A stretch of DNA of 64,000 nucleotides. Origin: Immundisolibacter cernigliae. Lineage in GTDB: Bacteria; Pseudomonadota; Gammaproteobacteria; Immundisolibacterales; Immundisolibacteraceae. A program made the position numbers and the translations under genes. Below are positions 18,221-21,424 of the stretch, piece after piece. The DNA lies in assembly GCF_001697225.1 (NCBI RefSeq), contig NZ_CP014671.1:930001-994000 (forward strand), written 5' to 3'. The notes below the pieces were generated by a model, which was not told where the DNA came from, did no database searches, and saw nothing but the letters and a program-made list of their open reading frames with translations. The number at the start of each line of letters is the position of its first letter. The first letter of the stretch is position 1.

Positions 18221-19561
18221 CTAGCCGCTGTCCTGATTGTGGTCGGCGGCGCCGATGCGCTCGCCCCACTCGGCGGTTTTGGCGACGATGGCGGCCGCAT
18301 CCAGCGTGGTCAGGCGCCGCTCGTGCAGCAGGCGCCGGCCGGCCACCCACACGTCGGTCACCGCCTCGCGGCCGGCGGCGTAGATGATCTGCGAGATCGG
18401 ATCGTGCACCGGCTGACAGTGCGGGGCCGACAGGTCGAGCGCCACCATGTCGGCCGCCTTGCCGGGCACCAGCGAGCCGATTTCCTCATCCAGACCCAGC
18501 GCCCGGGCGCCGCCCAGCGTCGCCATGTGCAGCAGCGCAGGCGCCGGTGCCGCGGCGGCATCTGCGGCGCCCAGCTTGGCCAGCAGGCCGGCGGTCTTGA
18601 GCTCGCCCAGCAGGTCCAGATCGTTGTTGCTGGCGGCGCCGTCGGTGCCGATGGCCACATTCACGCCCGCCGCCAGCAGGGCCGGCAGGGGACAGGTGCC
18701 GGAGGCCAGTTTCATGTTCGATTCCGGGCAGTGGACGATGCTGGCGCCCTGCGCGGCCAGGCTGGCGATCTCGCCGGCCAGCAACTGCGTGGCGTGCACG
18801 CCGATCAGCCGCGGCGACAGCAGGCCCAGCTGCGCCAGCCGTTCCAGCGGCCGCATGCCGTAGCGGGCCTCGCTTTCGGCCACCTCGTGCGCCGTTTCGT
18901 GCAGGTGGATGTGCAGCGGCAGGTCGAGTTCTTCCGCAAACGTGGCGATGCGCCGCAGCGGCTCGTCGCTCACTGTATACGGCGCATGCGGCGCAAACGC
19001 CGTGCGGATCAGCACATGGCCGCGCCAGGCGTCGTGCAGGGCGATGCCCTTGCGCAGGTAGTCGTCGGCATCGGCGGCGTAGGCGCTCGGGAAGTCGATG
19101 GCGATCAGGCCGATCACCGCCCGCATGCCCGCCGCCGCAGCTACCTGAGCGGTCTCCTCGCCAAAAAAATACATGTCCGAAAAGCAGGTCACGCCGGCCT
19201 GGATCATCTCCGCCGCCGCCAGCGCGCTGCCGTCGCGCACGAACTGCGGCCCGACGAAGCGTTGCTCGGCCGGCCAGATGTGCTGCTGCAGCCAGGGCAT
19301 CAGCGGCAAATCGTCGGCCAGGCCGCGCAGCAGCGTCATGGCGGCGTGCGTGTGGGCGTTGATCAGGCCCGGAATCAGGGCATGGCGCGGCAGCTCCACC
19401 TGGACCAGATCCGCGAACTGTTCGCGCGCCTGGGCGCTCGGCAGCACGGCGAGGATGCGCCCGTCCCGAACCACCACGGCGTGATGGTCCAGCACCCGCC
19501 CGGCGGGCTCGACCGGAATCAGCCAGCGGGCGTGGGCCACGAAACTTGCAGAATCGTTCAT
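18221..19561 (-). CDS. mtaD: 5-methylthioadenosine/S-adenosylhomocysteine deaminase family amidohydrolase
   Basis: Zinc-dependent amidohydrolase of the TRZ/ATZ/MtaD family, acting on the adenine of MTA or SAH, or on related amino-heterocycles. The 446-residue protein shows LINAHTHAAMTLLRGLADD (metal His pair), HIHLHETAHEV, a further His before CPESNMKLASG, and GTDGAASNNDLDLL with the metal Asp. The ATG at 19561 gives the family N-terminus; an upstream in-frame TTG is less likely. The exact substrate cannot be settled from sequence, as guanine/atrazine-type relatives share these motifs. Confidence 0.85.
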   Translation of the reverse strand: MNDSASFVAHARWLIPVEPAGRVLDHHAVVVRDGRILAVLPSAQAREQFADLVQVELPRHALIPGLINAHTHAAMTLLRGLADDLPLMPWLQQHIWPAEQRFVGPQFVRDGSALAAAEMIQAGVTCFSDMYFFGEETAQVAAAAGMRAVIGLIAIDFPSAYAADADDYLRKGIALHDAWRGHVLIRTAFAPHAPYTVSDEPLRRIATFAEELDLPLHIHLHETAHEVAESEARYGMRPLERLAQLGLLSPRLIGVHATQLLAGEIASLAAQGASIVHCPESNMKLASGTCPLPALLAAGVNVAIGTDGAASNNDLDLLGELKTAGLLAKLGAADAAAAPAPALLHMATLGGARALGLDEEIGSLVPGKAADMVALDLSAPHCQPVHDPISQIIYAAGREAVTDVWVAGRRLLHERRLTTLDAAAIVAKTAEWGERIGAADHNQDSG

Positions 19562-19591
19562 CGGCTTGATCCGGAGCGGCAAAAAGTGCGT

Positions 19592-19619
19592 TTGCAGCGC
19601 GAAAACGCGGTGCTATAGT
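19592..19619 (+). promoter_or_regulatory. Candidate promoter of the leuA leader transcript
   Basis: TTGCAG (19592-19597) and TATAGT (19614-19619) are separated by 16 nt, each matching the sigma-70 consensus at four or five positions. Transcription would start near 19626, about 20 nt before the small leucine-rich ORF and some 260 nt before leuA. Confidence 0.5.
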
Positions 19620-19647
19620 GCCGGCGCTCCTCGCAATTGCAAATTCC

Positions 19648-19776
19648 ATGACCCGCGACCGCCAGCCTGTCCCTGCCCTCCCCGTCCGCGCCCCGCGCGG
19701 CGCCGGCCCGCGTGCGTCCGCTGCCCTGACCTGCCGGCCGCACGGCCTCCTGCCACTGACGCTGCGACTGCCGTAA
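19648..19776 (+). CDS. Putative leucine leader peptide upstream of leuA
   Basis: A 42-codon ORF in the otherwise gene-free gap between mtaD and leuA. Its C-terminus reads [10 protein letters not shown] and then TAA, giving five leucine codons (one CTC, four CTG) within the last nine codons. This clustering near the stop is what transcription-attenuation leader peptides look like. A short hairpin (CTGCC-gtaa-GGCAG, 19768-19781) spans the stop codon, and a second GC-rich hairpin (19836-19858) lies before leuA. The weakness is the absence of a good Shine-Dalgarno before the ATG; the predicted 5' leader is only about 20 nt. Confidence 0.5.
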
Positions 19777-19835
19777 GGCAGACACACGCACGCCCTGGCG
19801 AGGGCCCCCAGTACGCAACTCAATCAGACACCAAG

Positions 19836-19858
19836 GCCGCGCGGCAAAGCCCTGCGGC
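19836..19858 (+). terminator. Possible attenuator hairpin before leuA
   Basis: GCCGC and GCGGC arms (19836-19840 and 19854-19858) flank an inner GGC-aaa-GCC stem. The following bases (tgcccgttactgtt) are only moderately T-rich, so intrinsic termination would be weak. It is listed because of its placement between the leucine-rich leader ORF and leuA. Confidence 0.3.
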
Positions 19859-19885
19859 TGCCCGTTACTGTTCCGGAGACCGGTC

Positions 19886-21424
19886 GTGAGCAAGGACAAA
19901 CTGATCATTTTCGACACCACCATGCGCGACGGCGAGCAAAGCCCCGGCGCCGCCATGAGCCGCGAGGACAAGCTGCGCATCGCACGCGCCCTGGAGCGGC
20001 TGAAGGTCGATGTCATCGAGGCTGGCTTCCCGGCCTCCAGCCCGGGCGATTTTGCCTCCGTGAAGGCGGTGGCCGAGATCGTCAAGGACTCGCGCGTGTG
20101 CGCCCTGGCGCGCACCGGCGATGCCGACATCGACCGCGCCGCGGAGGCCATCAAGCCGGCGGTGGCGCCGCGCATCCACACCTTCATCGCCACTTCTCCG
20201 CTGCACATGGAAAAGAAGCTGCGCATGACGCCCGACCAGGTGGTCGAGGCGGCGGTGCGGGCGGTCAAGCGGGCGCGCCAGTACACGGACGACGTGGAGT
20301 TCTCGGCCGAGGACGCCGGGCGTTCCGAGATGGAATTCCTGTGCCGCATCTTCGAGGCGGTGATCGACGCCGGCGCCACCACCATCAACGTGCCGGACAC
20401 GGTCGGCTACAACCTGCCGCAGCAGTTCGGCGAGAAGTTCAGGTACCTGATCGAGAACATCCCCAATTCCGACAAGGCCATCTTCTCGGCCCACTGCCAC
20501 AACGATCTGGGCCTGGCGGTGGCCAATTCGCTGGCCGCCGTGATGGCCGGCGCCAGGCAGGTGGAGTGCGCCGTCAACGGCCTTGGCGAGCGGGCCGGCA
20601 ACGCCGCGCTGGAAGAGGTCGTCATGGCGGTGCGCACGCGCCAGGATCTGTTCCCCTGCGACGTGGGCGTCGACACCCGGCACCTGCTGGCCTGCTCGAA
20701 GCTGGTGGCGGCCATCACCGGCTTTCACGTGCAGCCGAACAAGGCCATCGTGGGTCTGAACGCCTTCGCGCACGAGTCCGGCATTCACCAGGACGGCGTG
20801 CTCAAGAGCCGCGAGACCTACGAGATCATGCGCGCGCAGGATGTCGGCTGGCAGGACAACCGCCTCACGCTGGGCAAGCTGTCCGGGCGCAATGCCTTCA
20901 AGCAGCGCATGAGCTCGCTCGGCTTCGAGTTCGCCAGCCAGGAAGAAATGGCCGAGGCCTTCCGGCGCTTCAAGGAGCTGGCCGACAAGAAGCGCGAGAT
21001 CTTCGACGAGGACCTGATGGCGCTGGTCACGGACATGGACCTGAGCCAGGCCAACGAGCGCATCAAGCTGGTCGGCATGAAGGCCTGTGCCGAGATCGGC
21101 GAGACGCCGCAGGCCACCGTGTCGCTGGTCATCGACGGCGAGGAGCGCAGCGCCACCGCCGAGGGCGACGGTTCGGTGGACGCCACCTTCAAGGCCATCG
21201 AGGCGATCGTGAATTCCGGCGCGCAGCTGCAGCTGTACTCGGTGCAGAGCATCACCTCCGGCACCGACGCGCAGGGCGAGGTCAGCGTGCGCCTGGCTCG
21301 CGACGGCATGGCCGTGAACGGCTCGGGCTCGGACACCGACATCGTGATCGCGTCGGCCAAGGCCTACGTCAACTGCCTGAACCTGGTGCTGGCGGCGCGC
21401 GCGCACGCCGCGGCGGGGGTCTGA
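19886..21424 (+). CDS. leuA: 2-isopropylmalate synthase LeuA
   Basis: First step of leucine synthesis: condensation of acetyl-CoA with 2-oxoisovalerate. The 512-residue protein begins with the catalytic [17 protein letters not shown]. It contains the metal-binding [16 protein letters not shown] and NGLGERAGN, and carries the C-terminal LeuA regulatory domain (from about residue 385) that binds leucine for feedback inhibition. The start is GTG 19886 with GGAG 8 nt upstream. No leuB/C/D genes follow, so leuA stands alone, preceded by a possible leucine attenuation leader. Confidence 0.95.

Follow-up and report, generated by a model that had tools for sequence, protein, structure and literature searches.

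The leuA leader locus

The window examined here is a 64,000-nt stretch of the Immundisolibacter cernigliae genome (G000:C1:930001-994000, from a single 3.24-Mb contig), and it was compared with relatives within the Gammaproteobacteria in the genome-taxonomy sense. It carries a gene that we take to be leuA, a name that follows an earlier, sequence-only reading of the window and the recognised family start LIIFDTT.RDGEQ; of 56 relatives, 38 have a LeuA homologue, with identities of 48-98%. The region in front of this gene is very probably a leucine leader of some kind (Table 1). The sequence-only reading had described it as a leucine attenuator consisting of a well-placed promoter, a 42-codon ORF with five Leu among its last nine codons, a hairpin across the stop codon of that ORF and a second hairpin before leuA. 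All four of these parts lie where it had placed them, and the promoter is close to consensus. Its two reservations, a poor ribosome-binding site (RBS) and a weak T run, were likewise well judged, as no Shine-Dalgarno (SD) site precedes the leader ATG and the G+C-rich hairpin before leuA is followed only by TTACTGTT, the best T run present and not a proper one. The most conserved RNA part of the leader, a putative pseudoknot between the two hairpins, was overlooked.

Table 1. Parts of the leuA leader locus, numbered from the first nucleotide of the window
Feature	Position	Strand	Details	Basis
Sigma-70-type promoter	19591..19619	+	TTTGCA-N17-TATAGT; -35 TTTGCA 19591-19596; -10 TATAGT 19614-19619; spacer 17 nt	sequence; retained in 3/3 genomes of the genus
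Leader ORF, 42 aa, without SD site	19648..19776	+	ATG at 19648, TAA at 19774-19776	sequence, genus comparison, class-wide leader statistics
P1 hairpin	19768..19781	+	CTGCC-GTAA-GGCAG, stop codon inside loop	folding, class-wide conservation
Possible P1 extension	19763-19766 / 19787-19790	+	TGCG / CGCA	sequence
Predicted H-type pseudoknot	19792..19817	+		motif counts against shuffles, covariation of the pair flanking S1 and of S2
Pseudoknot S1	19792-19796 : 19801-19805	+	GCCCT : AGGGC	sequence
Pseudoknot S2	19798-19800 : 19814-19816	+	GCG : CGC, within conserved ACGCA 19813-19817	sequence
Third hairpin before leuA, not convincing as terminator	about 19835..19859	+		folding, terminator scan
leuA RBS and start	19875..19888	+	GGAG 19875-19878, seven nucleotides 5' of the GTG start at 19886	sequence; retained in 3/3 genomes of the genus
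leuA, 2-isopropylmalate synthase (name assumed), putatively regulated gene	19886..21424	+		512-aa ORF

Conservation and restriction to leuA

Relatives lacking a Leu-rich ORF at this place were among the findings that the sequence-only reading said would count against it. In the leuA upstream regions of the class the Leu-rich ORF end and the stop-codon hairpin do recur: when regions were scanned for a hairpin, close to a stop codon, at which an ORF ends with three or more Leu codons, 104 of 149 scored as leaders, compared with 7 after shuffling, and the remaining 45 leuA genes scored none. Within the genus, comparison with two sister genomes (LeuA 98% and 91% identical) revealed that the promoter, the ATG, the first residues, the LRLP-stop end, P1, the CCTGGCGAGGGC element, ACGCA and the leuA RBS are nearly invariant, and that the rest of the leader region drifts. 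Outside the genus just the Leu-rich end, P1 and the promoter appear to be retained, always before leuA.

A covariance model, R1, was built from 44 sequences and run over 232 genomes of the class, and among the matches listed at E <1e-6 all but one lie directly 5' of leuA. The window is the sole strong match in its own genome (1.9e-12), the next (0.006) falling inside coding sequence, and the five matches opened from outside the training set were all located upstream of leuA with in-frame Leu leaders. An exact search with the 20-mer CGACTGCTGCCGTAAGGCAG returned eight matches in 84,980 species genomes, every one directly upstream of leuA; the records come from Nevskia, Ectothiorhodospiraceae and further Gammaproteobacteria, one of them titled merely as a bacterium. 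In a sample of the phylum R1 gave only weak matches outside the class, and those opened had no leuA nearby; candidate occurrences before other genes or beyond the class were rejected, as the matches were weak and the opened ones proved to be Leu-rich coding or repeat sequence. The element thus appears restricted to leuA. The one exception among the strong matches is a second leader copy on a 6.7-kb contig (G086:C96:4383-4459), which has no leuA after it in the stretch read; it would be explained by contamination, by a break in the contig or by displacement of the copy.

No related Rfam family was found over the whole window at gathering scores or over 19500-19950 at E 10, and eight loci taken from this genome and its relatives gave no match either. 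Literature searches, whose reach did not extend to subscription papers, returned no paper on the element.

A leader peptide without a Shine-Dalgarno site

Leucine accounts for 47% of the last ten codons of the class leaders versus 9% of the codons before them and 4.5-7.7% when the other frames are read. The scan itself demanded three or more Leu codons, so that the shuffled count given above is the fair test. The peptides end in ...LRLLP, ...LLLLP, ...LRLPR, ...LLPLRG and similar sequences before the stop. Within the genus the start codon, the N-terminal residues MT[RH][DN]R.PV and the C-terminal LRLP-stop are retained, and a 123-nt insertion in the leader of one sister genome (G002) keeps the frame, adding 41 codons. 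This pattern of conservation, together with the in-frame insertion, suggests that the leader ORF is translated.

When the best promoter before each leader was taken, most class leaders were found to be preceded by TTGGCA-N17-TATAGT or something close to it. In 47 leaders (about 45%) the first in-frame ATG follows the -10 box after 6-8 nt, and in none after 13-18 nt, and the ATG stands 6-7 nt after the -10 box in all five newly opened covariance-model matches, read by eye. A spacing of 6-8 nt places the predicted transcript start at the AUG, and the leader mRNA is therefore probably leaderless in about 45% of the leaders. Among 38 leaders with a longer 5' part just one has a correctly spaced SD-like tetramer. 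The window leader, with 28 nt between the -10 box and the ATG and no SD, is not itself predicted to start leaderless. Absence of an SD site before the leader ORF appears to hold throughout the class, and the poor RBS remarked on in the window thus reflects the rule among class leuA leaders.

The stop-codon hairpin and the predicted pseudoknot

The short P1 segment of the window folds with a z of -2.7, none of 200 shuffles being equally stable; over its whole length the leader is no more stably folded than its shuffled counterparts (z 0.05). P1 recurs upstream of leuA across the class, and in four leaders (L006, L019, L028 and L030) the hairpin is retained with the stop codon outside its loop. 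That P1 persists where the stop codon has moved indicates that it is kept for its own sake.

Downstream of P1, CCTGGCGAGG (at most one mismatch) closely followed by ACG[CT] occurs in 42 of the 149 leuA upstream regions and in 0-1 after shuffling. In this element loop and stem are equally well conserved, and the GCG of the loop complements the CGC within ACGCA. Next to the S1 stem the flanking pair varies freely (C-G, G-C, A-U, U-A), and the loop helix S2 varies with compensation in about eight lineages. The conserved element CCTGGCGAGG…ACGCA is best read as a small H-type pseudoknot. The canonical S2 would comprise only three pairs; the case for it lies in conservation and in the alternative helices of relatives. 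Pseudoknots of the same geometry with other loop helices are seen in leaders that lack the canonical sequence: ACG:CGU (L087, L100), GGUGG:CCACC (L030), GGCGG:CCGCC (L019), GGCGA:UCGCC (L024), GCGUGA:UCACGC (L017), GGGCUG:CAGCCC (L053), UGGCGAC:GUCGCCA (L079) and GUCCGG:CCGGAC (Nevskia and relatives, L153, L154). When all leaders were scanned for pseudoknots in general, they separated poorly from shuffles; a stricter scan of the non-canonical leaders gave 14 of 71, compared with 4.6 +/- 2.1 shuffled (maximum 10 in 60 shuffles), from which about ten non-canonical pseudoknots are real and a few are chance, and single weak cases such as L056 and L137 are not to be trusted. A sizeable share of the leaders (for example L008, L010, L011, L021, L058 and L077) have a simple G+C-rich hairpin in place of the pseudoknot.

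Terminator and antiterminator searches

Strong T-rich intrinsic terminators are not commoner before leuA than expected by chance, with one in 104 leaders versus 1.2 in shuffles; the same detector, used on E. coli as a positive control, finds the leu terminator at once. Weak hairpin-T sites (5 of 8 T) were counted in 15 of 104 leaders versus 4.1 shuffled. The 3' arm of P1 has no excess complementarity to downstream RNA, so that no antiterminator helix was found and the textbook 2:3 helix is missing. A conserved intrinsic terminator before leuA thus appears to be absent. The earlier proposal of a leucine attenuator is in this way divided: its leucine-codon leader stands, and the terminator-based part finds no counterpart in these counts. 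The second hairpin on which it had relied is present throughout the genus, but its sequence is not conserved, and the T run is lost in G002. One leader, L208 (G126:C153), differs from most in the class in having AGGTTTTTTTT shortly before leuA, possibly a weak intrinsic terminator.

Possible pairing between the Leu run and the leuA RBS

Complementarity between the Leu-codon run and the leuA RBS exceeds that of GC-matched permuted partners (z 3.0 in leaders with the pseudoknot, 2.4 in those without) and that of codon-shuffled leaders (z 2.3, p 0.015), with helices of up to 11 bp such as GTGGCTGCTCC:GGAGCAGCCAC in L063 and TTCTCCTAAAT:ATTTAGGAGAA in L112. When a ribosome-sized stretch is masked, predicted RBS accessibility rises most if the mask lies on the Leu run (+0.05 +/- 0.011), an effect that may be due in part to CUN runs matching GGAG sites in general; in the window species the mask leaves accessibility unchanged. 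The Leu run also showed complementarity to an unrelated control region, the 5' part of the leader about 70-130 nt before P1, with a larger z of 4.0 in a single test; this signal proved weak and heterogeneous on splitting, and pairing with that region was rejected. Given this larger value and the lack of an effect in the window, the signal for pairing of the Leu run with the leuA RBS across the class is modest and only suggestive. Pairing of the Leu run with the pseudoknot, present in the window's own fold, was rejected as a general feature, there being no excess of it class-wide.

A model of leucine sensing and its rivals

The leader, P1, the promoter, the absence of an SD site, the covariation of the predicted pseudoknot, the restriction to leuA and the lack of a conserved intrinsic terminator all emerge from sequence comparison; translation of the leader, ribosome stalling in it and the direction of control we infer. 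The best overall explanation, to which we assign a probability of roughly one half, is a cis-acting leucine sensor of leuA, most likely read out at translation. Transcription would start at about 19626, and the 42-codon leader would be translated without an SD site; many relatives would begin it at a leaderless 5' AUG. With Leu-tRNA in short supply a ribosome would stall in the Leu codons just before P1, and with Leu-tRNA plentiful it would reach the stop codon in the P1 loop and depart, its position on the leader setting whether leuA is expressed. A free Leu-codon run, with its CUN repeats, would pair with the purine-rich leuA RBS, the intervening RNA being folded into P1 and the pseudoknot, and a ribosome stalled on the run would free the RBS. 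This readout through the RBS is itself tentative, and we regard it as somewhat less than an even bet. That the class as a whole shares a sensor of new build, with a leaderless or SD-less peptide, a stop-codon hairpin, a pseudoknot essential for control, no intrinsic terminator and no entry in Rfam, seems to us a shade short of evenly balanced.

The main rival to the RBS readout is Rho-dependent attenuation, in which Rho would gain access to the C-rich, G-poor RNA after the pseudoknot once a ribosome has completed the leader, and would be blocked by a ribosome that stalls in the Leu codons or by the structures that such a ribosome permits. We hold this to be unlikely, yet a serious alternative. 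It agrees with the lack of an intrinsic terminator, and the RNA after the pseudoknot is rich in A and C, poor in G (A 31, C 29, G 19, T 20 percent) and at times wholly unstructured, for example in L109 and L119; the excess of C over G is, however, just moderate, rut sites cannot be proven from sequence, and the complementarity of the Leu run to the RBS would be left without a role. Classical attenuation through a (weak) intrinsic terminator before leuA, as the sequence-only reading had proposed, we consider improbable. A strand 1 that holds the control codons, a 1:2 loop that holds the stop codon, the G+C-rich hairpin with its short T run in the window and the surplus of weak hairpin-T sites are all as it would have them, but T-rich terminators at chance level, a T run missing within the same genus and the lack of 2:3 complementarity speak against it. 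It is very improbable that the ORF has nothing to do with leucine, whether as the gene of a functional small protein or as a chance reading frame that is not translated, even though its N-terminal part is retained within the genus and its translation is a prediction, for beyond the genus the parts retained are those named above, always before leuA, in numbers far from the shuffled expectation of merely 7 in 149.

Relation to known leaders

Leucine attenuation is taught from E. coli. Many other gammaproteobacterial lineages would have a different leuA leader, lacking an SD site and an intrinsic terminator and often carrying a conserved pseudoknot, which we regard as a variant build of the leucine leader-peptide control region, its function being deduced from nucleotide and codon patterns throughout. 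For annotation such leaders would amount to a new RNA family; they would also offer a natural collection of gammaproteobacterial peptides that are probably leaderless, and a system in which to test how a stalled ribosome can control a gene without a terminator. The enterobacterial leu leader (RF00512, E. coli leuL) is similar in placing a Leu-codon leader peptide upstream of leuA and differs in its strong terminator (ACCCGCGCCATTGCGCGGGT followed by a T run). The RF00512 model scores E. coli at 145.8 bits and finds no match in the window even at E 10, and R1 does not detect the E. coli leu leader.

A similar arrangement is the LEU element of actinobacterial leuA, for which a Leu run, a pseudoknot and pairing to the Shine-Dalgarno box have been proposed (Seliverstov et al. 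2005, PMC1262725), and where leader mutations had some effect, though not one consistent with classical attenuation (PMC1262725). In layout, common to both are the position upstream of leuA, a leader ORF containing a Leu-codon run, a pseudoknot, here a predicted one, and the lack of a terminator (PMC1262725), and in the present leaders, too, the putative pseudoknot lies between the leader codons and leuA. The LEU element belongs to another bacterial group; here a hairpin encloses the stop codon, the predicted pseudoknot is marked by a conserved sequence of its own, and the Leu run/Shine-Dalgarno pairing proposed there is here just statistically suggested (z 2.3-3.0) and not seen in the window. 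Attenuator peptides translated from an mRNA that starts at their AUG are described for Corynebacterium ilvB (PMC5784534) and Sinorhizobium meliloti trpL (PMC7298713), which concern other genes and amino acids and have known start sites, whereas the leaderless starts reported here are predicted, and for relatives only. The ilvB-OMG and ilvB-II motifs (PMC10272879) are conserved RNAs before branched-chain amino-acid genes that have been reinterpreted as leader-peptide uORFs; they differ in preceding ilvB, and the window leader is matched by no Rfam family.

A -10-like TA[CGA]AAT is often found about 30-45 nt before leuA, for example in L015, L038, L042 and L051, and some species may possess a second promoter downstream of the leader.
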